Assembly: GCF_903903185.1 (NCBI RefSeq)
Contig: NZ_CAIUXT010000219.1
Coordinates: 1-62,165, forward strand
Direction: 5' to 3'
Length of the DNA stretch: 62,165 bases
DNA from: an uncultured Rhodoblastus sp.
GTDB lineage: Bacteria; Pseudomonadota; Alphaproteobacteria; Rhizobiales; Beijerinckiaceae
A program made the position numbers and the translations under genes. Positions 2,529-20,420 of this stretch are shown piece by piece (position 1 is the stretch's first letter; each line of letters starts with the position of its first letter). A model generated the notes under the pieces. That model had not been told where the DNA came from. It saw nothing but the letters and a program-made list of their open reading frames with translations, and made no database searches.

Positions 2529-2548
2529 GCCCCGAAGGGGCTTTGTTT
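2529..2548 (+). terminator. Short GC hairpin with T-rich tail downstream of metXW
   Basis: GCCCC-GAA-GGGGC (2529-2541) is followed by TTTGTTT. The stem is only 5 bp and lies about 210 bp past the metW stop, so this is a weak call. It also abuts the stop codon of the convergent PEP-CTERM gene. The stretch 2316-2528 otherwise shows nothing recognisable. Confidence 0.35.
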
Positions 2549-4433
2549 ACCTGCGCCGGCAATCGCCCAACTCAAAGCCTTGGGCGCCGACGGCGCTGAC
2601 GTCGTGCGCCCGAAGAACAGCCCGGCCTCTTCGACTGGCGCAGCCGAGGGCGACGAGACCGAGGAGCATCAGCGCCCAGGTGGACGGTTCAGGCGCCGGG
2701 GACGCCGTATCGAAGTGCAACTCCAACCGGGAGTAGACTTTTGCAGCGTTCATCGTGCAGGATTTTGAATTCGACGCTGTTTCGACCCAGTTCCATGCGT
2801 TCGAGCCGAATGCAATCGTTTTCGGTCCGAGGTATCCAAGGTCGATGAAGCCGAAATCAAGCAATGGCAGCGTTGCGGAATTTGGGTTATTGCCAGGCGT
2901 AGACGTCGCCGGGCGATCGTTGTTTGCGTGATCGACGCTCGCGACGTTGGGGCTCGTGAAGACGATTGCACAGGTGCGATGGCAGGGAGAGCCCGCAGTC
3001 AAGGCTGCGATACGTTGGTCGATTGCTGTCGAGTTGGACTCAAGCGCCGCCCACGGGCGTGACCATGGGCAAGAGCCGGCCGCCGCCGCTTCAGTAAAGC
3101 GCCCTTCATACGGCGATTCGCAAGCGAGCCTTGTTTCGCAAAGGTCAGCCGCCGCCGCCTCGCCGCAGACCTCAAGGCGCGAGGTCATTGCCCGGCCACA
3201 TCGCGGAGCGAAATCTGTCTGGTTGGACTCAAGCGCCGCCCACTCGCGCGACCATGGGCAAAAGCCGGCCGCCGCCGCTTCAGTAAAGCGCCCTTCACAC
3301 AGCGATTCGCAAGCGAGCCTTGATTCGCAAAAGTCAGCCGTCGCCTCCTCCCCGCAGACCTCGAGGCGCGAGGTCATAGCCGGGCCACATCGCGGAGCGA
3401 AATCCGGCGTGCTGAACTCAAGCGCCGCCCACTCGCGTGACCATGGGCAAAAGCCGTCCGCCGCCGCTTCAATGAAGCGCCCTTCAGATGGCGATTCGCA
3501 AGCGAGCCTTGATTCGCAAAGGTCAGCCGTCGCCTCCTCCCCGCAGACATCGAGGCGCGAGGTCATAGCAGGGCCACATCGTGGAGCGAAATCTGTCTGG
3601 TTGGACTCAACCGCCGCCCACTCGCGTGTCCATGGGCAAAAGCCGGCCGCCGCCGCTTCAGCAAAGCGTCCTTCACACGGCGATTCGCAAGCGAGCCTTG
3701 TTTCGCAAAAGTCAGCCGTCTCCTCCTCCCCGCAGACATCACGGCGCGAGGTCATCGCCGGGCCACATCGTGGAGCAAAATCCGGCGCGCTGCACTCAAG
3801 CGCCGCCCACGGGCGTGACCATGGGCAGAAGCCGGCCGCCGCCGCTTCAGTGAGTCCCGGATCGCAGAAGTTTTTGTTAGCGTATTCAAATTTATTATTT
3901 TCAGTTTTGACAGATAGATTTCCCGCATCTAAATCGTCAATAGGCTGTCCTTTTTGCATAGCCATAATAGGCATATTATCCGTATTAACATCCGGGCCAA
4001 CATAGCTTTGCAAGCCGAAGCTGACTGCATTTTCAATTTGATAAATTCCGGTCCATCCGTCGTCGGAGACGGGATTGCATTCGTCGGCGGCTCCAGCCGA
4101 ATATTCCTGCATGATGAAATATGCTCGATCAGAAAGTATGGAGCGATTTCCGTAAACAGTCATTGCGATTTCCAGCGGATACGAAAGCTGGCCGGACTCA
4201 TGGATCGACGCCATCAAGGCGCTGCTCGCCGCTTTGGACTGGTCATCGACCAAAAATTTCACATCGTTCGCTCTTGTCGCGGCGCCTCCATTGAGAGTCA
4301 TCTTCGTCAAATGGATTGTCGCCGCGTGGGCCGTCATAAGCGACAGAAGCGCTGTTACGACCGCAATCAAGCCGCAAAGTCCAAAATTTTTCCAAGGCGA
4401 GCGCCCGCAATCTCGAACCAGATATTGGTTCAT
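2547..4433 (-). CDS. Secreted cysteine-rich tandem-repeat protein with PEP-CTERM sorting signal
   Basis: About 628 residues. The ATG at 4433 is chosen because it follows a G-rich ribosome site and gives a clean signal peptide (RSPWK, then a hydrophobic run, cleavage after AHA); ATGs at 4469 and 4538 are also in frame. A unique N-terminal region of about 175 residues is followed by four complete 63-residue repeats and one partial repeat. Each has five invariant cysteines in FCPW, RCG, VCGE, a C-E pair and LACES, giving about 27 cysteines in the mature chain. The C-terminus has PAPEPSTWALMLLGL, then RRGR, the PEP-CTERM signal read by an exosortase; no exosortase gene is in the window. The tail after the arginines is about 20 residues longer than usual. 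Function is unknown; a disulphide-rich surface or metal-binding role is inference. Confidence 0.75.
   Translation of the reverse strand: MNQYLVRDCGRSPWKNFGLCGLIAVVTALLSLMTAHAATIHLTKMTLNGGAATRANDVKFLVDDQSKAASSALMASIHESGQLSYPLEIAMTVYGNRSILSDRAYFIMQEYSAGAADECNPVSDDGWTGIYQIENAVSFGLQSYVGPDVNTDNMPIMAMQKGQPIDDLDAGNLSVKTENNKFEYANKNFCDPGLTEAAAAGFCPWSRPWAALECSAPDFAPRCGPAMTSRRDVCGEEETADFCETRLACESPCEGRFAEAAAAGFCPWTREWAAVESNQTDFAPRCGPAMTSRLDVCGEEATADLCESRLACESPSEGRFIEAAADGFCPWSREWAALEFSTPDFAPRCGPAMTSRLEVCGEEATADFCESRLACESLCEGRFTEAAAAGFCPWSREWAALESNQTDFAPRCGRAMTSRLEVCGEAAAADLCETRLACESPYEGRFTEAAAAGSCPWSRPWAALESNSTAIDQRIAALTAGSPCHRTCAIVFTSPNVASVDHANNDRPATSTPGNNPNSATLPLLDFGFIDLGYLGPKTIAFGSNAWNWVETASNSKSCTMNAAKVYSRLELHFDTASPAPEPSTWALMLLGLVALGCASRRGRAVLRAHDVSAVGAQGFELGDCRRR
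3029..3853. repeat. 189-bp in-frame tandem repeat array, about 4.4 copies
   Basis: The core GACCATGGGC (or a one-base variant) recurs at 3061, 3250, 3439, 3628 and 3817, exactly 189 bp (63 codons) apart. Alternate units are more alike: units at 3250 and 3628 share TCTGTCTGGTTGGACTCAA, while units at 3439 and 3817 carry TCCGGCG(T/C)GCTG instead. The array therefore looks like a 378-bp higher-order duplication of a two-unit block. Because the period is a multiple of three, the antisense strand is also open. Confidence 0.95.
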
Positions 4434-4619
4434 CGCGCCCCCACCAGGATTGGAAGAATTTTTTGCCATCACGCGTGCGATATGCCGCCCCTGTGTTCGA
4501 TCTCTTTGCTGAACGATTGGCGCTATGGCCGTGTGCAAAACGCAGCAAACCGCGTGCCGCTCTCAAAGGCCGTTTTGCCTTAAATTCAAAGCGATACTGG
4601 AGTTTTGCATATTGCAATT

Positions 4620-8214: not shown

Positions 8215-9513
8215 ATGCACGGCGGCGGCGGCGTCTTGCCGGTCAATATCTGGGTCGCGACGGGGATCGTGATCCTGTGCATCCTGTTTTCGGCGCTGTT
8301 TTCCGGGTCCGAAACCGCGCTGACGGCGGCGTCGAAGGCGCGGATGCACGCACTCGAAAAACAGGGCGACGGGCGGGCGAAAACCATCATCCGCCTGCTC
8401 GGCGGACGCGACCGGCTGATCGGCGCCATGCTGCTCGGCAACACCTTGTTCAATATTTTCGCCTCGGCGTTTTCGACCACCATGCTGGTCGCGTTTTTCG
8501 GCGACACCGGGGCGCTTTACGCCACCGTCCTGATGACCGTCCTGTTGCTGGTGTTCGCCGAAGTCCTGCCGAAGACCGTGGCGATCAATTATCCCGACCG
8601 CGTATCGCTGGCGGTCGCGCCGGTCGTTTCGTTCTTCGTCGCGCTGTTCGGCCCGCTGCTTTTTGGCGTCGAAATGCTGGTGCGCGGCGCGCTGCGCGTC
8701 TGCGGCGTGCGGCTCGGCGAAGCCCATGGCCTGCTGACGCCGCAGGAGGAGCTGAAAAGCGCGGTCGATCTGATGCACCGCGAAGGCGACGTCGCCCGCT
8801 CCGACCGCGACATGTTCGGCGGCCTGCTCGACCTCAAGGAGCTGACCGTCTCCGACGTCATGGTCCACCGCACCAAGATGCTGACCCTCGACGCCGATCT
8901 GCCCGTGGCGGACATCGTGCGGGAAGTCGTCGCCGCGCCCTATACCCGCGTGCCCCTGTGGCGCGAACACGCCGACAACATCATCGGGGTGCTGCACGCC
9001 AAGGACCTTCTGCGCGCCCTCGCGCAAGCCGGCGGCGACGCCGACAAAGTCAAGCTGGAGATCATCACGCTCGAAGTCTGGTTCGTGCCGGACACCACGA
9101 CGCTCGAAGAGCAATTGCAGGCCTTTCGCCGCCGCAAAACCCATTTCGCGCTGGTTGTGGACGAATATGGCGACGTGCAGGGTCTGGTGACGCTCGAAGA
9201 CATATTGGAAGAAATCGTCGGCGACATCCGCGACGAGCACGATCTCGCGCTGACCGGCGTGCGCCGGCAGGCCGACGGCGCGGTGATCGTCGAAGGTTCG
9301 GTGCCGATCCGCGATCTCAACCGCGTGATGGACTGGGACCTGCCGGACGAGGAAGCCACGACAATCGCCGGTCTCGTGATCCATGAAGCCCGCGCCATTC
9401 CCGAACAGGGCCAGAAATTCGGTTTCCACGGTTTCCGCTTCGAGGTGCTGCGCAAGCAGCGCAACCGCATCACCTTGCTCAGGCTGACGCCGGAGCCGGC
9501 GGAAGAAGGATGA
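8215..9513 (+). CDS. CNNM/CorC-HlyC family membrane protein (DUF21, CBS pair)
   Basis: 432 residues. The N-terminal DUF21 domain has about four membrane segments with the FSGSETALTAAS signature. A pair of CBS domains follows (DVMVHRTKML to about residue 330), then a C-terminal CorC_HlyC domain near GSVPIRDLNRVMDWDLP. Proteins of this architecture act in magnesium/cobalt resistance or export; the old label hemolysin is misleading. It starts 3 bp after the aroKB stop and is probably co-transcribed with it. Confidence 0.88.
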   Translation: MHGGGGVLPVNIWVATGIVILCILFSALFSGSETALTAASKARMHALEKQGDGRAKTIIRLLGGRDRLIGAMLLGNTLFNIFASAFSTTMLVAFFGDTGALYATVLMTVLLLVFAEVLPKTVAINYPDRVSLAVAPVVSFFVALFGPLLFGVEMLVRGALRVCGVRLGEAHGLLTPQEELKSAVDLMHREGDVARSDRDMFGGLLDLKELTVSDVMVHRTKMLTLDADLPVADIVREVVAAPYTRVPLWREHADNIIGVLHAKDLLRALAQAGGDADKVKLEIITLEVWFVPDTTTLEEQLQAFRRRKTHFALVVDEYGDVQGLVTLEDILEEIVGDIRDEHDLALTGVRRQADGAVIVEGSVPIRDLNRVMDWDLPDEEATTIAGLVIHEARAIPEQGQKFGFHGFRFEVLRKQRNRITLLRLTPEPAEEG

Positions 9514-9762
9514 AACCCCGGTTTTCGAGCCCCGGCGTCGAGACCGCAATGCTCGAGACAGCAGACTTCGAGAGGCGCAAGCGAACTTTGCAGCGACAGG
9601 CCGGCCGTTGGAAGAATTTTGGCCCGTTCCGCTATCTACCCGCGGACCGACCGGCGGCGCTCCAAACCTGTGTCAGAAACAATGCCTGTACACGGGGGCG
9701 TGAAATTCTCTAAACCATTGACGTAGAATGGCTATCTCTTTCACCACCGGGCAAAGCCGAAA
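9514..9762. other. Intergenic region before the permease-kinase gene
   Basis: No gene was seen. TTGACG at 9718-9723 could be a -35 element, but no good -10 follows at the right spacing. The ribosome site before the next ATG is weak. Confidence 0.3.
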
Positions 9763-12700
9763 ATGAGCGCGCAGGTTGTTCCGTCGTTTGAAGAAGGCCG
9801 GGGGACGGCTGCGCCGCGCGTCCATCCGCGCACGATTGGCTGGGTCGGAACGGCGGCCCTCGCCATGGGCGGGAGCAACCAGAGCCTGTTCCTCATGGCG
9901 GCGCTGTTTGGCGGCCAGGGCGACATCCCCGGACAGGGAAGCGCCTCGATCATCCTTTTGGCTGTCGGGCTGTTGCTGGGCTTCGCCGCCGCCCCCGGCT
10001 GGATCGAACTTGTCCTGATGTCGCCGAACCGGGTGGGTGGAATCGCTGCGGCGTGCACTGCGGCGTTCGAGCCTTACGGCGCCATTCTCTCGGCGCTTAC
10101 CGGGGTTTGCTACTGGTGGGGCTGGGTTCCGACCTGCGGCCTGACGGCGTTGTTTTCGGCTTCGGCGATCAACCAATGGGCGCTGCCAGACGTGCCCGTT
10201 CCAGCCATCGCCTGTTTCCTGGTCGCCTTGTTCGTGGCGGTCAATCTCGCCGGCATCAAATGGGTCACCCGGGTCAGCGTCCCCATAGCAACCGTGTCCG
10301 CCGCGCTGGCTTTCGTTTCGATGATCGCGCCCGTCCTCGCCGGGCGAGCCGACTGGACGTCGCTGGGGCGATTCCATCTCGACACGCCTTTTCCGGGCTG
10401 GTTCGGCGACGTCACGTCGCTGATGGCGGGGCTCTACCTGGTCGGCTTTGCGGCCCCGGCTTTCGAGGCGGCGACCTGCCATGTCGCCGAGACGATCGAT
10501 CAGAATCGCAATGTTCCGCGCGCCGTGCTGGCGGCGGCCTTCATGGCGGCGATATTCTTTGTCGGCCTGCCGATCGTGTGGTTTTGCGTTCTTGGGGCGG
10601 AACCGCTGACCGGCGATCTCGGGCAGGTGCTCGGTCCGACTTTCCAGCCGCTTTTCGGAGGTTTGGCGAAGTCGGCCGCGATCTGGTTCATGATGTTCAA
10701 CATGTTTCACGGCACGATGCAGCCGCTTGCGGGCGCGGCGCGCACCTTGTCGCAGTTGAGCGACGACGGTTTGCTGCCTCGCTTCCTCGCCTTGCGGTCG
10801 AAGAACGACGCGCCCTGGGCCGCCACGATCCTGACGGCTGCCTTTTCGATCCTTTTCCTGTTGATGGGCGATCCGATCTGGCTGGTCGCCGCCGCCAATT
10901 TTACCTATTTGATCGGGATTTGCCTGCCCAACATCGCGGTGTGGCTTCTGCGGCGCAACGCTCCGGGCGAGGCGAGGCCCTGGCGCGCGCCGCGCGGCAC
11001 GATCGGACTCGGCGTCGCCGCCGCACTGGTCTGGCTGACCTCGACCGTGCTGGGCTTTGAGCAGTTCGGACTTCCCACCGTGGTGTTTGGGCTTGCCATG
11101 GCCTATTCCGGCGCCGGCCTGTTTGCATGGCGCAAGATGGAAGATCGGGTGCGGGCCGGTTTGCCCGCCGTCAGAATGACGCTCCATCTCAAGCTGACCG
11201 GCGCGATGCTGCTGGTCCTGGTGCTCGACGCGGGGGGCTATCTCATCGCGGTGAACAGCATACCGGCCGGCCAGCCCGCCATGGTCGCGGCGCTGGAGGA
11301 TATTTTTGTCGCCGTCGCGATCCTGACGATTACGGTCGGCGTGGTTTTGCCCGGCATGATCGCCCATAGCGCAGCCGAGATCAGCGCGGCGGCGCAGCGC
11401 CTTTCATCCGGCGTGCTGCACGATTTCTCCAGCGCCATGAATTCGCTCGCCAAAGGCGATCTGGCTGGCGCGCATCTGGAAGCCAATATCTTCCCCGTCG
11501 TCGTGCGGTCCCAGGACGAACTTGGAACGATGGCTGAAAGCTTCAACGAGATGCAATTCGAAGTCAAAAAAGCGGCTCGGGGGATCGACGGCGCGCGGGA
11601 GGGGCTGCGGGGAGCGCGAGCCGAACTGACCGAATCGAACGAACATCTGCGGGAGGAGGTGCGCAAACAGGAAAAACTGGCGGCCGAACTGATCCTGGCG
11701 CGCGACGCCGCCGAGGCGGGCAATCGAAGCAAGGCCGAGTTTCTGGCGATCATAAGCCACGAACTTCGCACCCCGCTCAATGGCGTGATCGGTCTCGCCG
11801 GGCTGCTGCTCGACGCGGATCTGGACGATCGCTCCCGCCGCTACGTCGAGACGCTGAATGAAGCCGGCGACCATCTGTTGCAGCTGATCAACGATCTGCT
11901 CGACTTCAGCAAACTCGAGGCCAATCAATTCGTGTTTGAAGAAGTTGTTTTCGATCTGGATTCAGTCTTGCTCAGCGTTCTCGACCTGATCGGCGCCCGC
12001 GCCCGGGCGAAAGGACTCAAGCTTTCAAAACATATGTCCGACCAATGTCCGCCGGTTCTGATCGGCGATCCGGGCCGATTGCGGCAAGTTCTCAGCAATC
12101 TGCTGGGCAACGCCGTGAAATTTACCGAAAAAGGCGCCGTCTCGGTAGAAGTTCGGCGCCTTCCCTCAAGCGATGCCGAGGCATTGCTTGAATTTGCAAT
12201 CACCGACACCGGGATTGGCATCGCTTCCGACAAGCTGCCGCTGCTGTTTCGCGAGTTCAGCCAGATCGACAGCTCGATATCGCGACGCTTCGGCGGCACC
12301 GGATTGGGACTGGCCATCAGCAGGAGGCTGGTGACGCGGATGGGCGGGACCATCCGCGCCGAAAGCCGACTGGGCCAGGGATCGACATTCCGGTTCACCA
12401 GCCGGTTCAAGCTGGCCAAGGCCCCCCTCGAAAGCGTCGATGAATCGCCGATGAGGCTCGATGGCCGACGGATTCTGATCGTCGACACTTGCGAAGCAAA
12501 CCAAAAAATTGCCGCACAGCAGGTTTCGGACAGAGGCGCGACCGTCGTCGCCTTGAGCGATCCGCGGGAGACCCTGGCGCGACTGCGCCTGGCGACATCG
12601 AATGGCGCTCCGTTCGATGCTGTCGTCATCAACCGGAATTTGCCCGACTTTGACGGAAACAGCCTGGCCCGCGAGATCCGCGCAGGGTATGATTTTGCCG

Positions 12701-13302
12701 GGCTTCGGCTGATCCTTGCCTCGTCGGGCGAACTGGATTTCGACCAACATGTCTTAATGGAGGGATCGTTCGATGCAATTCTGGCCAATCCTGTTTCCGC
12801 CAACGGGCTCGTTCGGGTTTTAGGCGGCGGGGAGAAAAAACGCGCACCCCCCGAAAAGACTGGAACCGGGATCATTGCGTCGTCGGCCCGAAAAGCCGGC
12901 AAGGCGAAAATCAGAGTGCTGGTTGCCGAGGATAATCAGACCAACCAGCTGGTGATCAGGGCCCTGCTCGAAAAGGCGGGCGTGCGCGTCGATCTGGTGG
13001 CCAACGGACTTGAAGCGGTCTCGGCGGTGCGCGAACGTCCTTACGATCTGGTGCTGATGGACGTCATGATGCCGGAACTCGATGGAGTCTCGGCCACCCG
13101 CCAAATAAGAGCGCTGCCGGGCGCGCAAGGCCGCATTCCGATCATTGGCCTGACGGCCAATGTATCCGAGGAGGATCACGCCGCTTTCAGGGCGGCGGGG
13201 ATGGACAGGGTGATCACCAAACCCGTTCGCTATCAACAGCTGGAAGAACTGCTGTCGGCCGGCAGGTGGGGCGGATCTCGCGGATCGGCGGAGCCCGAAT
13301 GA
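9763..13302 (+). CDS. Amino-acid permease (APC)/hybrid histidine kinase with two receiver domains
   Basis: 1179 residues in one frame. Residues about 20-470 are an APC-superfamily transporter with roughly 12 membrane segments. Two further segments (about 475-540) lead into a HAMP-like linker with QDELGTMAESFNEM near 584-598 and a coiled coil (about 605-655). The kinase core has His666 in SHELRTPLN, N box Asn783 in GNAVKF, G1 Asp815 in DTGIGI and G2 GGTGLGL near 847. Receiver 1 (about 903-1015) lacks the phosphoacceptor: Asn957 replaces Asp, and the switch Lys is also Asn. Receiver 2 (about 1045-1165) is complete: ED pair, Asp1100 in LMDVMMP, Thr in LTAN, Lys1153. A transporter fused to a kinase recalls CbrA, which uses a sodium-solute symporter. 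The substrate and output are unknown; no DNA-binding regulator is adjacent. Confidence 0.9.
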   Translation: MSAQVVPSFEEGRGTAAPRVHPRTIGWVGTAALAMGGSNQSLFLMAALFGGQGDIPGQGSASIILLAVGLLLGFAAAPGWIELVLMSPNRVGGIAAACTAAFEPYGAILSALTGVCYWWGWVPTCGLTALFSASAINQWALPDVPVPAIACFLVALFVAVNLAGIKWVTRVSVPIATVSAALAFVSMIAPVLAGRADWTSLGRFHLDTPFPGWFGDVTSLMAGLYLVGFAAPAFEAATCHVAETIDQNRNVPRAVLAAAFMAAIFFVGLPIVWFCVLGAEPLTGDLGQVLGPTFQPLFGGLAKSAAIWFMMFNMFHGTMQPLAGAARTLSQLSDDGLLPRFLALRSKNDAPWAATILTAAFSILFLLMGDPIWLVAAANFTYLIGICLPNIAVWLLRRNAPGEARPWRAPRGTIGLGVAAALVWLTSTVLGFEQFGLPTVVFGLAMAYSGAGLFAWRKMEDRVRAGLPAVRMTLHLKLTGAMLLVLVLDAGGYLIAVNSIPAGQPAMVAALEDIFVAVAILTITVGVVLPGMIAHSAAEISAAAQRLSSGVLHDFSSAMNSLAKGDLAGAHLEANIFPVVVRSQDELGTMAESFNEMQFEVKKAARGIDGAREGLRGARAELTESNEHLREEVRKQEKLAAELILARDAAEAGNRSKAEFLAIISHELRTPLNGVIGLAGLLLDADLDDRSRRYVETLNEAGDHLLQLINDLLDFSKLEANQFVFEEVVFDLDSVLLSVLDLIGARARAKGLKLSKHMSDQCPPVLIGDPGRLRQVLSNLLGNAVKFTEKGAVSVEVRRLPSSDAEALLEFAITDTGIGIASDKLPLLFREFSQIDSSISRRFGGTGLGLAISRRLVTRMGGTIRAESRLGQGSTFRFTSRFKLAKAPLESVDESPMRLDGRRILIVDTCEANQKIAAQQVSDRGATVVALSDPRETLARLRLATSNGAPFDAVVINRNLPDFDGNSLAREIRAGYDFAGLRLILASSGELDFDQHVLMEGSFDAILANPVSANGLVRVLGGGEKKRAPPEKTGTGIIASSARKAGKAKIRVLVAEDNQTNQLVIRALLEKAGVRVDLVANGLEAVSAVRERPYDLVLMDVMMPELDGVSATRQIRALPGAQGRIPIIGLTANVSEEDHAAFRAAGMDRVITKPVRYQQLEELLSAGRWGGSRGSAEPE

Positions 13303-13363
13303 ACGCGCCGGATGCGGTCCGCATCGCCAAGATGTATCCGGGGTGAACGGACAGGCGCGGAAC

Positions 13364-13380
13364 CGCCAAAGTTTTTGGCG
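13364..13380. other. Hairpin downstream of the permease-kinase gene
   Basis: CGCCAAA-GTT-TTTGGCG forms a 7-bp stem with a 3-base loop 62 bp past the stop codon. It has no T-run, so it may be a weak terminator or an RNA-stability element. Confidence 0.35.
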
Positions 13381-13503
13381 CCGCCGCTTCCGCCTGCCCG
13401 TCCATTCTTGCCGGGCGACCGCAACAACCCTTGCGATTCAACTAATGGCGGACAGAACCGGTCCGATGTGCTATGTTGCCCGCTAACAAAGCCGGAGAAT
13501 TGA

Positions 13504-15300
13504 GTGTCGCAACACGCCCAGACATCAAAAAAGCGCTTCCTGTGCCTCATGATCAAGCCGTCGCATTACGATGACGACGGCTATGTGATTCGCTGGTGGC
13601 GCACGATCATTCCGTCGAATTCGCTGGCCGCGCTCTATGGCATTGCGGCGGACTGCGCGGAACGGCGGATTTTCGGTCCCGATGTCGCCATCGATATCGA
13701 GGCGCTGGACGAGACCAACACCCGCATCGACATTGCATCCATCGTCCGGCGTTTCCGCGCCAATGGCAATTTCGGGCTTGTCGCTCTTGTCGGCGTGCAG
13801 ACCAACCAATATCCGCGCGCGCTCGACCTCGCCCGCCCGCTGCGCGAGGCCGGGATCGCCGTGGCGATTGGCGGCTTCCATGTGTCGGGATGCCTGTCGA
13901 TGCTCGATAACGACGCGGTCGATCTGGCCGCCTGCCGCGAGCTGGGCGTCGCCATGTTCGCCGGCGAGGCCGAGGAAGGCCGGCTCGACCGGGTGTTCCA
14001 CGATGCGGCGGCGGGCAAGATGGCGCCGGTCTATAATTTCATGAAGGACCTGCCGGGAATGGAGGGCGCGCCCGTCCCCTTCCTGCCCATCGCCAATCTC
14101 GGCCGCGCCTGGGGCAACAGCACGAGTTTCGACGCGGGACGCGGCTGTCCGTATCAATGCTCGTTCTGCACCATCATCAATGTGCAGGGCCGCAAGTCGC
14201 GCTACCGCACGGCGGACGACGTCGAAAAACTGGTGCGCCTGAACTGGGCGCAGGGCGTCTCCAAATTTTTCATCACCGACGATAATTTCGCCCGCAACAA
14301 GGAATGGGAATCGATTTTCGACCGGCTGATTCTGCTGCGCGAACGCGACGGCATTCCGATCGGCCTGATGATCCAGGTGGACACGCTCTGCCACAAAATC
14401 GACGGCTTCGTCGAAAAATCCAAGCGCGCCGGGGTCACCCGCGTGTTCATCGGGCTGGAGAACATCAACCCCGACAATCTCGTCACCGCCAACAAGCGGC
14501 AGAACAAGATCACCGAATATCGCAAGATGCTGCTCGCCTGGAAGGCGCAGGGCATCATCACGCTGGCGGGCTATATTTTCGGCTTTCCGTCGGACACGGC
14601 GGAAACGATCCGCCGCGACATCGAGATCATCAAGCGCGAATTGCCGCTCGACGGGCTCGAATTCTTCAACCTGACGCCGCTGCCCGGCTCCGAGGACCAC
14701 CAGACGCTGTGGCGCAAGGGCGTCCCGATGGACCCCGACCTCAACAAATACGATCTGGAGCATGTCTGCACCGCCCATCCGAAAATGAGCAAGGCGGAAT
14801 GGGAAGGCATTTATCGCGAGGCCTGGTCGCTCTATTATTCGCCGGAACATATGGAAACGCTGCTGCGCCGCGCCGCGGCGACGGGCGTGCGGATGGGCAG
14901 CCTGATCCGGGTTCTGGTCACCTTCGCCACCTCGGTCAGCCTCGAAGGCGTACATCCGATCCAATATGGCGTGTTCCGGCTAAAACATCCGTCCGAGCGC
15001 CGGCCCGGCCTCAAGTGCGAAAGCGCTTTGCTGTTCTGGCCGCGTTTCGTCGCGGAATCGATCTACAAGGTCGGCGCGGCGGTCAGCCTGAATTTGAAAC
15101 TTCTGTGGGTGGCGCGCCGCATCGAACGCGATCCCAACGCCAAAAGCTATATGGATCAGGCGCTGACGCCGGTGCGCGACGACGACGAGGCGACCCTCGA
15201 TCTCCTGACCAAGACCACCGGCGCAGGCGCGGCGCTGGCCCATCTTAAAAAGATCGACAAGCTGACCCACCCGGGCGGCGTCAAGGTCGCCGCCGAGTGA
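13504..15300 (+). CDS. Radical SAM protein with N-terminal B12-binding-like domain
   Basis: 598 residues. GTG is chosen as start because GGAG lies 7 bases upstream. Residues about 10-170 have a cobalamin-binding-like Rossmann pattern (LVALVGVQTNQ, VAIGGFHVSG) but lack the DxHxxG cobalt-ligand motif. The radical SAM core begins at GRGCPYQCSFCTI with Cys215-x3-Cys219-x2-Cys222 for the 4Fe-4S cluster. A C-terminal region of about 200 residues resembles that of B12-type radical SAM enzymes. The reaction is unknown; methylation of a lipid or natural product is a family-level possibility only. It stands alone between the permease-kinase gene and a gene-poor region. Confidence 0.85.
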   Translation: MSQHAQTSKKRFLCLMIKPSHYDDDGYVIRWWRTIIPSNSLAALYGIAADCAERRIFGPDVAIDIEALDETNTRIDIASIVRRFRANGNFGLVALVGVQTNQYPRALDLARPLREAGIAVAIGGFHVSGCLSMLDNDAVDLAACRELGVAMFAGEAEEGRLDRVFHDAAAGKMAPVYNFMKDLPGMEGAPVPFLPIANLGRAWGNSTSFDAGRGCPYQCSFCTIINVQGRKSRYRTADDVEKLVRLNWAQGVSKFFITDDNFARNKEWESIFDRLILLRERDGIPIGLMIQVDTLCHKIDGFVEKSKRAGVTRVFIGLENINPDNLVTANKRQNKITEYRKMLLAWKAQGIITLAGYIFGFPSDTAETIRRDIEIIKRELPLDGLEFFNLTPLPGSEDHQTLWRKGVPMDPDLNKYDLEHVCTAHPKMSKAEWEGIYREAWSLYYSPEHMETLLRRAAATGVRMGSLIRVLVTFATSVSLEGVHPIQYGVFRLKHPSERRPGLKCESALLFWPRFVAESIYKVGAAVSLNLKLLWVARRIERDPNAKSYMDQALTPVRDDDEATLDLLTKTTGAGAALAHLKKIDKLTHPGGVKVAAE

Positions 15301-15813
15301 GGCAGGGCTCCGAATTCGGGTGAATTTTGAAACCCGGGGCCGTCATGGCCGTGCTTGTCACGGCCATCCGCGCCCACGAGCCGCGCGATGTTTCCCCAAG
15401 ACGCCAGAGGGTTCATGCAACTTGAGTTGCCGATGAGGCCACGGCCCGGCGTGATTGCCCGTGACAAGCAGCGGCATGACGGCGTTGTTAACCCGAGTTC
15501 GGAGCGCTGCCGAGTCAGGGCGGCAGCCATCGGTTGAACGTGGAGGACGGGGCGCATGCCCTTGTCCCCATGGTCCGTCGTCAGCGGAAATTGTTTTCGG
15601 AAATCCTGCGGCGAAAGCAGGAATCTGCGTCAGGACCGGGACGACGTCCTTTGTCGAAGCTTTCCGGGTTTTTCGGCCAGAGGGGCCCGTTCCAGTCCGC
15701 ACGGATTTCGCAGCAGGCGCACGGCGCCGTCGCCCATTTCATTTGCAACCGTACGATCCGTCGCCCTTGTCTTCCGGACGAAGCCGGATCGCGAACGCCA
15801 TGCAACCTCATCG
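15301..15813. other. Intergenic region containing a repeat element
   Basis: No supported gene. It holds the inverted-repeat element listed separately at 15339-15483. Open frames on both strands lack ribosome sites and recognisable motifs. Confidence 0.4.
15339..15483. repeat. Dispersed intergenic inverted-repeat element (REP/BIME-like)
   Basis: GCCGTCATGGCCGTGCTTG (start of 15339-15365) is matched by a near-perfect inverted copy at 15457-15483 ending CAGCGGCATGACGGC. The 27-base arms enclose about 90 bp. The CGTCATG-GGC-CTTGTC-CGG-CATCC consensus resembles an intergenic repeat common in Hyphomicrobiales genomes (from memory). Only one copy was recognised in this window. Confidence 0.6.
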
Positions 15814-15996
15814 CTATCGGCTCCTGGGCGCCCAGCCCTGCATCAAGCCCGTCGGCGCTTCCGAGTCAAATGCGCCGCCCGGAAAGGTTTCGGCAAGGAA
15901 TGCCGTCAGAAGGATCATCACAAGAATGACGATGACATTAAGCAGAACATGGTCATCCCTCGGCTGTTTGCGCGGGACAGCATTAGCCTTTTTCAT
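15814..15996 (-). CDS. Small membrane protein (60 aa), uncharacterised
   Basis: The minus-strand ATG at 15996 follows a strong ribosome site (GAGGAGG, 5-base spacer). The product starts MKKANAVPRKQPRDDHVLLN, has one transmembrane segment over about residues 18-36 (VLLNVIVILVMILLTAFLAE), and ends in a polar tail. The basic N-terminus favours an inward-facing start. The 12 bases CGATCGAGGAGG before the start are repeated exactly before the small gene at 17540. No family is recognised; the strong ribosome site is the main reason to believe it is real. Confidence 0.6.
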   Translation of the reverse strand: MKKANAVPRKQPRDDHVLLNVIVILVMILLTAFLAETFPGGAFDSEAPTGLMQGWAPRSR

Positions 15997-16359
15997 CGGA
16001 ACCTCCTCGATCGACGCGACCCCGTAAAGCGCGCCACCCCAGGCGCACCGCTTATCGACGAAATTTATTTCGCTATTACGAATTATTTGATTTTATTATT
16101 CATTGCATTTTCATGTTTGATTTAGACGTGAAAATGCTCTATTCTTTTGTTTTTAAGTCTATTGTTATTCATGCATTTGTTAGGCTATTCTCCAGAAGAT
16201 CGTATGGAATACACAGTAGTCGGCCCAACTTTGAATTACAGCCCGAGGGGCTTTTGTTTACACCGGGTGGTTCGGCTTTCCCGCCCGGCGCCGCGCCAAC
16301 CCCTTGACCCAGGCCCCCCGCCGTGATCGATTTGATAGCATTGACGGCGCTCGCGCCTA
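15997..16359. other. AT-rich intergenic patch upstream of the CRP-like gene
   Basis: The stretch 16056-16225 is far richer in A and T than anything else in the window, with runs such as GAATTATTTGATTTTATTATT. No gene is supported. It lies between divergent transcripts (the small gene at 15996 and the regulator at 16441), so it may hold both promoters or be foreign DNA. Confidence 0.5.
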
Positions 16360-16375
16360 TGTGACCTCGATCACA
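16360..16375. promoter_or_regulatory. Perfect CRP-type site TGTGA-N6-TCACA, 65 bp before the CRP-like gene
   Basis: TGTGACCTCGATCACA has both half-sites identical to the enterobacterial CRP core. Its position 65 bp upstream of the regulator's start codon suggests autoregulation. Confidence 0.7.
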
Positions 16376-16440
16376 GCGTCGGCGCCGCGATCGGAGCTGC
16401 GGTGGACGCCGTCGGGCGGGCCGGGAGCGTTGGGGATTGC

Positions 16441-17148
16441 ATGAGCGAAGTTCAAAACGCGGCGAGCAACGCGCATCTGTTCGATCAATGCGCCGTGTTC
16501 CATACGCTCAGCGACGAGGCCCGCATCGAGCTGCTGAAACGCTCGTCTCGCCGGCATTTTACCTCCGGTCAGGTCATTTTCCGTTATCGGACGCCCGGCC
16601 AGAGCATGATGGTCCTTCTCAGCGGCGAGGTCCGCATTTCCCTGCCGGAGCCGAACGGGCGCGTCATCATCCTCGCCGATCTGCAACGCGGCGCCATATT
16701 GGGCGAAATGTCGGTGCTGGACGGCGAGGAACGATCGGCAGACGCGACGGCGCTGACCGCCTGCGAGCTGCTGGCGCTGGAGCGCAGCGACGTGTTGGCG
16801 TTTCTCGAGCGTCATCCCGGCGTCTGTCTGGACATATTGCATATGGTCTGCGCCCGCCTGCGCGACGCCAACGAACGGACGCTGGACCTCGGTTTTCTCG
16901 ACGTCCCCTCGCGACTGGCCAAGATGCTGCTGGCGCGGGCGAAAAAGCGCGGCAATGCGGCGCCGGGCGGCGCGACCTTGCGGATCAGCGACAGTCAGAG
17001 CGATCTGGCCGCCATGATCGGCGCCAGCCGCGAAAAAGTGAATCGTTCGCTCAAACAGATGCAGCAGCAAGGAATCGTAGCGACGCGCGACGGCCGCATC
17101 GAGATTCTGAACCCGGGCGCGTTACAGTCCGTCGCCGGGCTGACCTGA
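16441..17148 (+). CDS. Crp/Fnr-family transcription regulator, CRP-like
   Basis: 235 residues. ATG 16441 is preferred over an in-frame GTG at 16402. The N-terminal cyclic-nucleotide-binding domain has the phosphate-binding cassette GEMSVLDGEERSA with Arg98-Ser99, matching the cAMP-contacting RS of E. coli CRP. No FNR-type N-terminal cysteine cluster is present. The C-terminal winged helix carries SREKVNR with Arg197, Glu198 and Arg202 at the spacing of CRP Arg180/Glu181/Arg185, which predicts a TGTGA half-site. Perfect TGTGA-N6-TCACA sites lie on both sides of the gene (16360 and 17631). Ligand specificity is inferred. Confidence 0.88.
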   Translation: MSEVQNAASNAHLFDQCAVFHTLSDEARIELLKRSSRRHFTSGQVIFRYRTPGQSMMVLLSGEVRISLPEPNGRVIILADLQRGAILGEMSVLDGEERSADATALTACELLALERSDVLAFLERHPGVCLDILHMVCARLRDANERTLDLGFLDVPSRLAKMLLARAKKRGNAAPGGATLRISDSQSDLAAMIGASREKVNRSLKQMQQQGIVATRDGRIEILNPGALQSVAGLT

Positions 17149-17366
17149 TCCGCGCCTTGTCGGAGCTGCAATTCGCTTCCATGGCCAACACGGGCGCAAT
17201 GGCGCGTTTCGAACGGGTCGATCGGGACAATGAGCCGGGCAGGGCCGGCCGGGCGCCAACATAAGGCGGGTGTTCGAGGACATTCCGCAAACCGATCCCG
17301 ATGATCCGGAGTTTGTCTGCGGCGGGGCCTATTGGCAGACCCGCTCCCGGGTCGAAGCGCTCACGC

Positions 17367-17540
17367 CTAAGCCTTGCTGAAGCGGCGCATCGGCCTGAAA
17401 CCTTCGGCATGGCTGACCTGACGCGACGTTTCGCCCATTCGCGGGCCGGCATTATATTCCCTTGAAACCAAACTGAAATAGATGCTGGGGGTGGCGTCGT
17501 CTCGCAACAGGGCTTGGACGATTTTGCTCCAGACGCTCAT
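17367..17540 (-). CDS. Small protein (57 aa) downstream of a CRP-type site, uncharacterised
   Basis: The minus-strand ATG at 17540 follows GAGGAGG with a 5-base spacer. The product starts MSVWSKIVQALLRDDATPSI and is basic, with no obvious membrane segment. The leader CGATCGAGGAGG is identical over 12 bases to that of the small gene at 15996. A perfect CRP-type palindrome lies about 90 bp upstream. It is too short for usual gene callers. No family is recognised. Confidence 0.5.
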   Translation of the reverse strand: MSVWSKIVQALLRDDATPSIYFSLVSREYNAGPRMGETSRQVSHAEGFRPMRRFSKA

Positions 17541-17630
17541 TGCAGCCTCCTCGATCGCTGGTTGAACCGGCCTCGCGACAGGAAGGCGACGCCATCACCT
17601 TATCGATAACACCTTCGGCCTTCGCGCCGC

Positions 17631-17646
17631 TGTGACGGCAATCACA
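17631..17646. promoter_or_regulatory. Perfect CRP-type site TGTGA-N6-TCACA upstream of the 57-aa gene
   Basis: TGTGACGGCAATCACA lies 91 bp upstream of the ATG at 17540 on the minus strand and 67 bp past the stop of the upstream small secreted protein. The distance suits activation of the 57-aa gene by the adjacent CRP-like protein. Confidence 0.7.
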
Positions 17647-17712
17647 GCCCGCACACCTTCGTCGGAGCCGGCGCGCCGACGCCAAACCGGAAGGAGGAGG
17701 CTTCGCGCCGGC

Positions 17713-17973
17713 TCAGAAAGACTTCTTGAATTCAAGTCCCGGCGGGTTCAATTTCGGCGACAGGCTTTGGCCCGGAGGCGTGTTGGCCTGACCTTCAAGC
17801 GTCATCCCATGTTCGGGCGGCTGCGTCGCCGACAGGGAATTCGGATCGGGTCGCCCATCGATGACTCGCTGAAGATCGGTCACGACGCCCGGAAGCCTGA
17901 ACTTGTCGAAATCCCCCGAAAAAGCCGGCGTGGCGAGGAGCAGGAAGGAGGCAAAAGTCGCAACATGTTTCAT
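17713..17973 (-). CDS. Small exported protein (86 aa), uncharacterised
   Basis: The ATG at 17973 gives MKHVATFASFLLLATPAFSG, a typical Sec signal peptide with cleavage near AFS-G. An upstream in-frame ATG at 18027 would bury it. The mature part is short and rich in proline and polar residues (GRPDPNSLSATQPPEHG), likely disordered and periplasmic. It lies just upstream of the CRP-type site and the 57-aa gene. No family recognised. Confidence 0.55.
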   Translation of the reverse strand: MKHVATFASFLLLATPAFSGDFDKFRLPGVVTDLQRVIDGRPDPNSLSATQPPEHGMTLEGQANTPPGQSLSPKLNPPGLEFKKSF

Positions 17974-17974
17974 A

Positions 17975-18006
17975 TTTGCCTGTTCTCGTGTTTGCCTGTT
18001 CTCATG
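17975..18006. repeat. 16-bp tandem duplication (15/16 identity)
   Basis: TTTGCCTGTTCTCGTG (17975-17990) is followed directly by TTTGCCTGTTCTCATG (17991-18006), just upstream of the small exported protein's start. A second pair with the same 16-bp spacing, CCAATAGACT, occurs at 18024 and 18040. Confidence 0.9.
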
Positions 18007-18055
18007 CGAAAAATGCTGCGAAACCAATAGACTGCGACGCCAATAGACTCAATTC

Positions 18056-18635
18056 TTGTCCTCTTTTGGGCCGTGGGACGCGTGTTGCCTGCGCTGTTGG
18101 ACTCTGGCGGGATCGTCCTGTCGAAAGGCCGCGTCAGGCCGAAGCGTTCGATCGGGCGGACTCGATCCGGCTCTCCGCCATATCCAATCCAGCAGGTGTC
18201 TGCCGGAGCAATCGCGTGAATGGCCTATCACCGATTTGGGGCCGTCCGTACATGACGGGTTGAAAATGCCTCCCAATACCTTTACCCGTTTGCTCCGCCT
18301 GCGCGCGGGGGTTGTGAGATGACCGGGAAAACAGCGCAAAACCAGCGACTTTCGTGGAAAAAGCGCGCGTTTTCGTCAAAAAGACGCCAATTTCCGAGCG
18401 TTTTTTTCACCCCTCGCGCGCCACAATCCCCGGTTGCGCTGCGCCCGCCGCCGTCACGGCGCCAGCGCGGCCCATTTGGCGAAAAAGATGGATAAACAGC
18501 AGCCTGCGGGCCAATTCGGCCCACCTCCCGGGCCAGGTGTTTCACGTGAAACATAACAAGAACACCGCAAAACCCGGAAATTTTCACCGAAAATGAGGGT
18601 TTGAGCCTTTTCACCTTCTTCGCCGAAAAGCGCGC
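18056..18635. other. Gene-free region holding parS
   Basis: No supported coding region; open frames on both strands lack ribosome sites and motifs. The only clear element is the parS palindrome at 18538-18553. Confidence 0.5.
18538..18553. promoter_or_regulatory. parS: parS centromere site (ParB-binding palindrome)
   Basis: TGTTTCACGTGAAACA is a perfect 16-bp match to the canonical bacterial parS consensus. ParB nucleates here to organise and segregate the newly replicated origin. parS sites cluster near oriC, usually close to gidAB-parAB. Those genes are not in this window, so this is either an outlying site or the cluster is nearby. Confidence 0.85.
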
Positions 18636-20420
18636 TCACGCCTCCGACTTCGCCTCCGCGGCCATGAATTGCGCCCGCGCCAGAGCGGCGAACTTGCCGT
18701 TGCGCGCCACCAGTTCCTCGAACGATCCGCCTTCGACAATTTTACCCTGATCGAACACGAAAATCTTGTTGGCGCTACGGATCGTCGCCAGACGATGGGC
18801 GATGACGAAGGTCGTGCGCCCCTTGGTCGCGGCCTCCAGCGCCGCCTGCAACTGCTTTTCGGTCGCGGCGTCGAGCGCCGACGTCGCCTCGTCGAAAATC
18901 ATGATCGGCGGGTCCTTGAGCAAGGCGCGGGCGATGGAGACGCGCTGGCGCTCGCCGCCCGACAGCGACCTTCCCCTTTCGCCGACCAACGTCTTGACGC
19001 CATCGACCTGACGCGCAACGAATTCGCTCGCCTGCGCCCGCTCCAGCGCCAAAGCGATTTCGGCGTCGGTGGCGTCGAGCTTGCCGACGCGCAGATTCTC
19101 CTCGATCGAACGGGCGAACAGCATCGGCTCCTGAAACACCACGCCGATATTGCGGCGCAGCGCGACGAGCTTCATGTCGCGAATGTCGATGCCGTCGATC
19201 CGGATCGCGCCGCCTTGCGGATCGAACACGCGATGCAGCAGGCTCAGCGTCGTCGATTTGCCCGAGCCGGTCGAGCCGACCAGCGCCACGGTCTCGCCGG
19301 GCTGGACCACGAAACTGACGTCGTCCACCGCCTTGCGGCGCTCGTCATAGGCGAAGGTGACCTGTTCGAACGCCACTTCGCCGACAAGCCGGCCGGGGTC
19401 TCGGGCGTTGGGCCGGTCGGCGACATTGGGCGCGGTGTCCATCACCTCGAAGAAGTCGGACATTTTCGGCGCCTGCAAGAACAGGTAATTGACGAAGCCG
19501 ACCAATTGCTCCAGCCGCCCGATCAGCATGGTGGCGAAATTCATGAAGGTGACGATTTCGCCGATGCTGGCGAGCGATTGCAGATGCAGCCAGACGCCGA
19601 TGACGAAGATCGACAATAGCGTCAGCGTCGCCGAGGCGCGCGTCGCCACCGCCGCCACCGCCCACCAGGACAGCACCGGCAGTTGCGCCGCCAGCACCCG
19701 GTCGACGATCCGCCGCAGCCCTTGGGATTCGCTGTCGATGCGGGTGAAGGACTGGATCACCGGGACATTGCCGAGCACATCCGAGGCGCGCTCGGCCAAC
19801 CGGGCGTTGAAAAGCTCCACCTCCGCCTGCAGGCCCTCGGTCCGGCGCAGCACGAAGGTCGTGAGCAGGCCGAAACAGATCACCAGCACCACCAGCACCG
19901 ACGCCAGCCGCCAGTTGATGAACAAGGTCAGCGGCAGCAGAATGAACAGCGCCACCATCGACGCGCAGTTTTCGCGGAAAAACGACAGCCACAGGCCGAA
20001 CATGCCGCTCGCGCCATCGAGCATCACCTTGAGCAGCCGCCCCGAATGGGTGGCGCCGTGAAAGCTCAGCGGCAATTCGAGCAGGTGATCGAAGAAATTG
20101 GCCATCACCGCGAGACGCCGCCGATGCGACAGCCGGTCGGCGTAAAGCGCCACCAGCACCGCCGCGCCGATGGAAAACAGCCCGAAGCCGACCCAGGCGC
20201 CCAATAGCGGCGTCAGTTCGGGCCAGGTCGGGTTGCGCTGCTGCGCCTGGGCGTTGGTCAGCCGGTCGATGATGCGGCCAAACAGCACCGGCTCGACGAA
20301 TTGCGCGATGGCCAGTGCGAGATTGGCGAAAACCAGGACAATGGCGAGGCCGCGCTCGGGGGCCAGTTCGCCGAGCACGCGCCGGTAGACCTGCAAGATC
20401 GGCATCTGGACTTTGGACAT
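18636..20420 (-). CDS. ndvA: ABC exporter, NdvA/ChvA-type cyclic glucan transporter
   Basis: 594 residues, a half-transporter with an N-terminal six-helix membrane domain (about 20-310) and a C-terminal ATPase. Visible are Walker A GSTGSGKST, signature LSGGERQRVS, Walker B IMIFDEATSALD and the H-loop in VIAHRLAT. The N-terminus (YRRVLGELAPER) and the overall pattern match the beta-1,2-glucan export family of Hyphomicrobiales. It would export cyclic glucan from cytoplasm to periplasm as a homodimer. No glucan synthase (ndvB) is in the window, so substrate assignment is by family resemblance. It lies downstream of the mannose-sugar genes on the same strand. Confidence 0.82.
   Translation of the reverse strand: MSKVQMPILQVYRRVLGELAPERGLAIVLVFANLALAIAQFVEPVLFGRIIDRLTNAQAQQRNPTWPELTPLLGAWVGFGLFSIGAAVLVALYADRLSHRRRLAVMANFFDHLLELPLSFHGATHSGRLLKVMLDGASGMFGLWLSFFRENCASMVALFILLPLTLFINWRLASVLVVLVICFGLLTTFVLRRTEGLQAEVELFNARLAERASDVLGNVPVIQSFTRIDSESQGLRRIVDRVLAAQLPVLSWWAVAAVATRASATLTLLSIFVIGVWLHLQSLASIGEIVTFMNFATMLIGRLEQLVGFVNYLFLQAPKMSDFFEVMDTAPNVADRPNARDPGRLVGEVAFEQVTFAYDERRKAVDDVSFVVQPGETVALVGSTGSGKSTTLSLLHRVFDPQGGAIRIDGIDIRDMKLVALRRNIGVVFQEPMLFARSIEENLRVGKLDATDAEIALALERAQASEFVARQVDGVKTLVGERGRSLSGGERQRVSIARALLKDPPIMIFDEATSALDAATEKQLQAALEAATKGRTTFVIAHRLATIRSANKIFVFDQGKIVEGGSFEELVARNGKFAALARAQFMAAEAKSEA

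Follow-up and report, generated by a model that had tools for sequence, protein, structure and literature searches.

A putative APC-permease receptor module with exchangeable signalling outputs, encoded by an uncultured Rhodoblastus sp. and found across seven phyla

Introduction

Fusions of a transporter to a histidine kinase are already known in bacteria, CbrA/CrbS and Ks-Amt5 being examples, and the APC-permease form described here is a new variant of this arrangement. It is encoded within a 62,165-nucleotide stretch of DNA, referred to as the window, from an uncultured Rhodoblastus sp. (contig NZ_CAIUXT010000219.1 of assembly GCF_903903185.1), in which a single gene specifies an APC permease joined to a HAMP-containing hybrid histidine kinase (APC-HK). 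Judging from the available portions of the literature cited in this section, characterised bacterial transporter-fused receptors are few, and bacterial transceptors have been called rare (PMC11109136, PMC13022988).

The closest described systems are the SLC5/STAC kinases (CbrA, CrbS/MxtR and RpuS), which, like APC-HK, carry a LeuT-fold transporter N-terminal to a histidine kinase that is sometimes a hybrid. They differ in transporter family, with SSF in place of AA_permease_2, and apparently also in the linker, which is STAC in these kinases and two additional transmembrane (TM) helices, TM13 and TM14, with a HAMP region in APC-HK. An earlier note on this DNA had set APC-HK apart from CbrA by transporter family, and the contrast holds, as the CbrA transporter belongs to the SLC5/sodium-solute symporter (SSS) family (PMC7918813, PMC13022988); CbrA is called a transceptor and is reported to bind and take up histidine (PMC13022988). 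Ks-Amt5 likewise joins a transporter fold, that of an ammonium transporter-like protein, to a C-terminal histidine kinase domain; it differs in its Amt fold, and the available portion of its description makes no mention of a HAMP coupler or of swapped cyclic di-GMP (c-di-GMP) outputs (PMC10433425). In the 5TMR sensor kinases, hybrids included, a transporter-related membrane fold also serves as kinase receptor, this being the S-component fold of ECF transporters rather than the 12-helix APC permease of APC-HK (PMC11109136).

We propose here, with a probability of roughly 0.7, that the permease of APC-HK, together with TM13-TM14 and HAMP (hereafter the module), represents a portable receptor, in which the permease pocket would sense one ligand and signal through TM13-TM14 and HAMP. 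The occurrence of a near-identical receiving part in distant bacteria with different outputs suggests that one specific small molecule is detected, and the keeping of the same detector by unrelated bacteria points to an important solute.

Results and discussion

Domain order and predicted structure of APC-HK

The APC-HK frame runs unbroken from ATG to stop over 1179 codons and comprises the following features, all on the + strand.

9763..13302, +, APC-permease/HAMP hybrid histidine kinase gene (APC-HK), 1179 aa (open frame and Pfam)
9835..11154, +, APC permease domain, TM1-TM12, aa 25-464 (Pfam, AlphaFold2, Foldseek and conservation)
11182..11382, +, TM13-TM14 hairpin, aa 474-540 (AlphaFold2 model and conservation)
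11383..11556, +, HAMP region, aa 541-598 (Pfam HAMP 552-598; AlphaFold2 helix 505-563)
11557..11712, +, signalling helix, aa 599-650, with AREGL motif at aa 611-615 (conservation and model)
11731..11922, +, HisKA dimerisation/phospho-acceptor domain with H666 (Pfam 657-720)
12064..12402, +, HATPase_c catalytic domain with N, G1 and G2 boxes (Pfam 768-880)
12472..12819, +, receiver 1, probable pseudo-receiver (profiles built here, 904-1019)
12916..13251, +, receiver 2, canonical, with D1100 and K1153 (Pfam, 1052-1163)

The uninterrupted frame and the Pfam matches thus bear out the order of permease, HAMP, kinase core and two receivers in one chain that the earlier note had read from the letters. 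AA_permease_2 matched residues 25-423 (E 9.5e-34; 117.5 bits against a gathering cut-off of 27), and Response_reg matched two stretches, the better being 1052-1163. As in other hybrid histidine kinases, the HisKA histidine (H666), the N-box (779-787), the G1 (815-820) and G2 (845-852) boxes and a receiver with its aspartate (D1100) are all present. In receiver 1, N957 stands at what we take to be the phospho-acceptor position and N1009 replaces the presumed conserved Lys; in receiver 2, these positions hold D1100 and K1153. Because of the Asn at the acceptor position, receiver 1 would not be phosphorylated in the usual way, and it is probably a pseudo-receiver with a structural or regulatory function; judged by eye, the acceptor Asp is absent also from receiver 1 of L013 (Roseiarcus), L015 and L074, and is kept in L037 and L047.

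No PAS or GAF domain was detected in APC-HK by Pfam or by the profiles built here. SSF (PF00474) gave no Pfam match in APC-HK, which was also missed by an SSF search of its own genome, and the Amt domain, whose fold is unrelated to the APC fold, gave none at E 0.001 (Pfam). Between permease and kinase, the one domain reported by Pfam is HAMP. The kinase and receiver region resembles BarA/TorS-type hybrids, scoring 428 bits with TorS and 418 bits with BarA, under the respective cut-offs of 676.5 and 890; the input parts of such hybrids are not known to be permeases.

An AlphaFold2 model of residues 1-647, built with 49 family sequences (mean pLDDT 89.4; pTM 0.85), contains twelve membrane helices in the permease part by our own count, TM1 being broken at residue 39 and TM12 spanning residues 437-464. 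TM6 (213-238) is a single unbroken helix in the model, this helix usually being broken in transporters of APC-type fold. The first ten rows of a Foldseek search against the PDB include BasC, y+LAT2, LAT1 and AdiC, with target TM-scores of 0.72-0.79 in 15 of the first 16 rows (0.75 for SLC7A10), all of BasC/LAT/Asc/AdiC type. The complete 12-helix transporter of the earlier note is therefore present as an APC fold, and its two extra helices appear in the model as TM13 (474-498) and TM14, the latter forming part of a continuous helix (505-563) which runs into HAMP and is followed by a further long helix (586-646). Since the loop between TM13 and TM14 comprises approximately six residues, there is no room for a separate extracytoplasmic sensor domain.

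Relatives of the module

Relatives were sought with residues 1-647 in one genome per species (84,980 species) by means of exact short peptide patterns, such that the number found is a lower bound. The scan returned 89 loci, 80 of which were kept, with 49-83% identity to the module of APC-HK. Going by their NCBI names, 78 of the tree rows could be assigned to a phylum, namely Pseudomonadota (30), Verrucomicrobiota (28), Actinomycetota (15), Myxococcota (2), and Chloroflexota, Omnitrophota and Dormiibacterota (1 each). Many carriers are, by name, lake or soil metagenome bins, and some have the names of methylotroph relatives (Methylovirgula, Methylotenera and Methylophilaceae). The module is rare but occurs across seven phyla, and its distribution is patchy: it was found in none of 397 other genomes of the same phylum (E 1e-50, with at most three candidates per genome among the matches listed), in none of the 10 same-genus genomes listed, and, among 150 relatives, in two genomes of the same family (G031, and G047 as two pieces on two contigs). 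G070 and G120, the other matches among those 150, were rejected as TMAO (trimethylamine N-oxide)-permease relatives of 28-29% identity. A single one of 72,556 plasmid records carries the module, namely a 1.09-Mb Paraburkholderia replicon.

Permease and output are fused in one frame in 75 loci of other genomes, among them the named isolates Roseiarcus fermentans, Paraburkholderia kururiensis, Glaciimonas immobilis and Actinoplanes palleronii. An assembly or frameshift artefact fusing a permease gene to a kinase gene, a danger which the earlier note had raised, is therefore rejected and retains next to no probability. Nor did the architecture prove common and already characterised, given its absence from the 397 genomes of the phylum and given that a full-text search of open-licence literature returned, among the matches listed, no description of an APC-permease kinase or diguanylate cyclase. 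In 100 genomes of the phylum, the PF13520 matches listed include four frames of more than 800 aa, one being APC-HK; the others (G217, G177 and G232) were rejected as fusions, as by eye the permease is C-terminal to a chance upstream extension.

No stand-alone permease was demonstrable among the 80 kept relatives. Of the short members, L058 and L084 were rejected as such because a different frame of their contig holds the matching output sequence, L092 because it is a permease/receiver sequence junction, and L009, L027, L053 and L075 because contig ends truncate them. The pieces of split or frame-broken members were compared separately and never joined. L008 and L020 are one gene, as their tree rows are identical and their contigs have the same length (23,180), and this gene was counted twice in the Pfam tails, the tree and the pair comparison.

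Exchange of outputs behind a conserved module

Among the 77 C-terminal tails analysed with Pfam (one gene twice), HATPase was present in 57, HisKA in 45, receiver in 31, PAS in 19, GGDEF in 18 and EAL in 17, followed by HisKA_2, Hpt and GAF (6 each), HisKA_3 (3) and HD (1). Output classes were assigned row by row with profiles built here for the 80 loci and APC-HK, L009, L084 and L092 being left out of the profile counts as their match stops before residue 555. Excluding APC-HK and the duplicate L008, the 79 loci comprise 44 HisKA, 18 GGDEF-type, 6 HisKA_2, 5 other HATPase and 3 HisKA_3 members, with 3 truncated or without output; L012, among the 76 loci with an output, represents only the 3′ portion of the gene that is divided between two contigs in G047. 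The tail of L081 reads as GGDEF followed by an HD-type domain without EAL; Pfam gave one HD match among the 77 tails.

On a quick IQ-TREE permease tree of 80 rows, in which 39 of 76 inner branches are starred, 76 rows carry an output label and require at least 14 changes of output class, where the lowest possible number is 4 and shuffled labels give a mean of 28.4; output is thus partly inherited and repeatedly exchanged. Starred branches force at least four changes for the GGDEF-type (c-di-GMP) class alone. Host phylum changes at least nine times on this tree, the shuffled comparison covering output class only.

Median pairwise identity among HisKA members (n=44) is 65.7% for the permease versus 38.9% for the core, the permease being higher in 944 of 946 pairs; the corresponding medians are 69.8% versus 43.2% for GGDEF-EAL members (17 rows, 16 different genes; 134 of 136 pairs) and 80.6% versus 43.5% for HisKA_2 members (n=6; 15 of 15 pairs). 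If only pairs with HisKA cores of 45-55% identity are considered, the permeases have a median of 68.7% and exceed the cores in all 241 pairs.

The same genome also encodes a different transporter-fused sensor, an SSS-type hybrid kinase of 1177 aa (L139:2439-5972, + strand, contig C12), classed as such from a weak but above-cut-off SSF match and by eye. This protein and its relatives served as a control, and their kinase parts differ among them too; 58 genomes belonging to the class were searched, of which 17, the own genome included, had a match, and 20 of the 22 matches were used. At kinase identities of at least 33%, the control medians are 48.4% for the transporter and 48.7% for the kinase, with the transporter higher in 37 of 81 pairs. 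A transporter more conserved than the matched kinase was therefore seen only in the APC set, in this one comparison, whereas in the SSS control kinases the transporter is no more conserved than the matched kinase.

Conservation within the module was assessed over 49 aligned members. Mean column conservation is highest in TM3 (0.87), TM6 (0.85) and TM10 (0.84), followed by TM1a and TM2 (0.81 each), TM8 (0.80) and TM1b (0.77), and is lower in TM9 and TM12 (0.70 each), TM7 and TM11 (0.69 each), TM5 (0.62) and TM4 (0.59). The substrate pocket of APC transporters is lined by TM1, TM3, TM6, TM8 and TM10. E235 in TM6, which presumably corresponds to AdiC E208, is invariant (49/49), and its counterpart in the aligned bacterial CAT homologue 6f34 is an Asp. 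High values also characterise the coupling hairpin (TM13 0.79, TM14 0.76), in which D489 (nearly invariant), G492, Y493, D513 and F515 (invariant) are conserved, as is HAMP. Such a pattern would be expected if the members had ligand and coupling mechanism in common, although it proves neither.

Candidate ligands

The earlier note had suggested that amino-acid transport or occupancy might be read, but an amino acid is not supported as the ligand. Among named NCBIfam transporters, the TMAO permease NF053774 scores best, with 115 bits for APC-HK and 124 and 149 bits for two other members, against a cut-off of 690; the next-best named transporter families reach 59, 76 and 81 bits in the same three members. 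Within TM1, APC transporters usually carry the substrate motif G-(S/A/T)-G, which is not a formal rule of membership; the own-genome permease L002 there has VGAGIF, whereas APC-HK reads GGSNQSLF and lacks the motif. As the TMAO permease is the nearest named family and the TM1 motif is atypical, an ordinary amino-acid ligand is doubtful.

A small methylated amine (TMAO, trimethylamine or similar) would be compatible with each of the mechanisms considered below, although we consider it rather unlikely. The TMAO permease, which is a stand-alone protein, is the closest named APC transporter by profile score, and it shares with the module the patterns C[YN]W.[GA]W.P in TM3 and FE.A.C[HY]..E in TM6, each present in most rows shown; some carriers are, moreover, methylotroph relatives by name. 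Against this, TMAO-permease homologues are 22-26% identical to the module in 11 of 13 aligned rows (the other two being frame fusions), which is too low for a substrate to be assigned by similarity, and the module remains far under the 690-bit cut-off. From the alignment, T_L124 and T_L135 (extra frame) and O_L001 and O_L004 (wrong-frame reads) were excluded. Few carriers compared with the majority have names that indicate methylotrophs, a search of the own genome for the TMAO permease at E 1e-40 found nothing, and the gln_synth_III matches there stay under cut-off; PF02461 gave no match in the own genome and none in the controls either, and is thus uninformative on methylotrophy.

Proposed mechanism and alternatives

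In the portable receptor that we favour, a small molecule would enter the permease's central pocket (TM1, 3, 6, 8 and 10) and bind there, and the occupied or cycling permease would shift the conserved TM13-TM14 hairpin. TM14, which is continuous with the first HAMP helix, may then relay the change through HAMP and the signalling helix to the output. In APC-HK, autophosphorylation on H666 would be followed by transfer of the phosphate to receiver 2 (D1100). As the chain contains no Hpt domain, the phosphate would then be passed on either to a separate Hpt protein or by direct exchange. In other bacteria, the same module would act on other kinases or directly on c-di-GMP enzymes. The suggestion of the earlier note that the permease itself senses is thus retained, on the comparative evidence of a constant part with changing outputs, while its amino acid is unsupported.

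Whether substrate is still transported separates two forms of such a receptor. In a true transceptor, flux rather than occupancy would set the state of the kinase, an idea that has been discussed for CbrA and histidine; being a sub-case of the receptor, with overlapping odds, this is a real possibility somewhat short of even. The kept APC fold (AlphaFold2, Foldseek), the invariant E235 aligned with the Asp of 6f34, and the binding and import of histidine reported for CbrA in the available portion of its description (PMC13022988) argue for it, whereas the atypical TM1 motif, the unbroken TM6 of the model and the absence of a recognised recurrent uptake or catabolic gene among the neighbours argue against it, and a fold is by itself no proof of transport. 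More tentatively, the proteins may constitute an undescribed, horizontally spread family in which the APC permease is a dedicated receptor that transports little or nothing and detects one specific small molecule, possibly a methylated amine, and in which the TM13-14/HAMP coupler drives many dimeric outputs (HisKA, HisKA_2 and HisKA_3 kinases, GGDEF-EAL or GGDEF-HD enzymes). It is improbable that an ordinary transporter is simply attached to the signalling part, with the signal read in the cytoplasm by PAS, GAF or receivers. By the profiles built here, 16 of 81 rows do have PAS or GAF between HAMP and the kinase, Pfam gave 19 PAS and 6 GAF matches in 77 tails, and a CbrA variant without the SSS domain is still able to act as a kinase according to the available text of PMC7918813; most members, APC-HK included, nevertheless possess neither domain, the conserved unit is the module and not the cytoplasmic part, and TM13-14 and HAMP are conserved across the 49 aligned members.

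Several observations weigh against the portable receptor. Its high conservation could stem from transport or packing instead of ligand recognition, and the PAS and GAF domains provide some members with another possible sensor. By analogy, CbrA remains a kinase without its SSS domain, and its sensed signal is taken as intracellular in the available portion of the source (PMC7918813). The permease tree was built quickly and leaves 19 of its 76 inner branches open, and the neighbourhoods name no ligand, the largest non-signalling clusters reaching 5 of 83 loci. When all 171 pairs of the SSS control are taken, swapped kinases among them, the transporter is the more conserved part here too (45.7% versus 31.5%; higher in 127 of 171), which indicates that output swapping is not special to the APC family; the two sets contrast only at matched output identity, the control being one class and 20 proteins and the APC set seven phyla. 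The portable receptor nonetheless remains the reading which we prefer, and a module approximately 50-85% identical to that of APC-HK across phyla, with a changing output, would render transporter-fold signalling directly testable by virtue of a single module with a presumed single ligand, linked through a simple covalent coupler to several enzymatic read-outs. The module may also be a starting point for biosensors.

Neighbouring genes and phosphotransfer partners

Neighbours were listed for 31 loci, with flanks of unequal length, and Pfam was applied to 20 neighbour proteins only; those of L013, L075 and L081 were set aside as an antisense frame had been picked over the focal gene. A 4-base overlap with the next gene was present in 12 of the 31 loci (11 histidine kinase members and one GGDEF-EAL member), and 6 of these 12 next genes were scanned. 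Receivers were found in all five that follow a kinase member: L034 and L044 are followed by receiver-PAS-HisKA-HATPase hybrids, L064 by a 260-aa protein with a lone receiver domain, and L080 and L089 by receiver-winged-helix regulators. The GGDEF-EAL member L088 is followed by a HAMP-GGDEF-EAL protein. Other members neighbour receiver-EAL (L017, L071), receiver-HD (L021) or single-receiver (L033, L049) proteins, and single-linkage clustering of neighbours gave only one widespread cluster, present at 32 of 83 loci, whose scanned members carry receivers or GGDEF-EAL. A phospholipase C-like phosphoesterase gene (L022:8918-11140, +) lies 65 bases downstream of a family member.

For APC-HK itself, the search for an orphan regulator or phosphotransfer protein proposed in the earlier note yielded only candidates, namely Hpt proteins elsewhere in the genome, and no response regulator among the neighbours scanned with Pfam. 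The own genome has three Hpt matches, in a 979-aa frame, a 175-aa open reading frame (L140) and a 129-aa open reading frame (L141), the last following an NtrC-type regulator (class read from the translation). The two small Hpt-like proteins, encoded on contig C16 (15406-15933, -; 175 aa) and contig C230 (56514-56903, +; 129 aa), are candidates only for the role of phosphotransfer partner of APC-HK.

The genomic site of APC-HK

APC-HK is located in the following region.

9514..18635, no strand, variable region holding APC-HK (comparison with nine same-genus regions)

The site is flanked by a CorC-like gene (8215-9513) and a gene at 18636-20420. In four of the nine same-genus regions fetched (L107, L108, L110 and L111; a tenth genome, G008, was left out), the flanking genes are approximately 10-100 bases apart, without APC-HK, while four others hold different inserts of approximately 1.7-4.6 kb and L112 stops before the far flank. 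Because the flanks adjoin or hold different inserts, 9514-18635 is regarded as a variable site, occupied here by approximately 9.1 kb. Its G+C content is 61.5% versus 63.8% for the window, in which no tRNA was found.

Next to APC-HK lies a radical SAM protein gene (13504-15300, +), whose NCBIfam matches are all far under their cut-offs; a search of three family loci (L008, L013 and L014) found no relative. Elsewhere in the window, a 663-aa frame (2547-4538, -) carries a C-terminal PEP-CTERM match (Pfam, E 3.7e-06).

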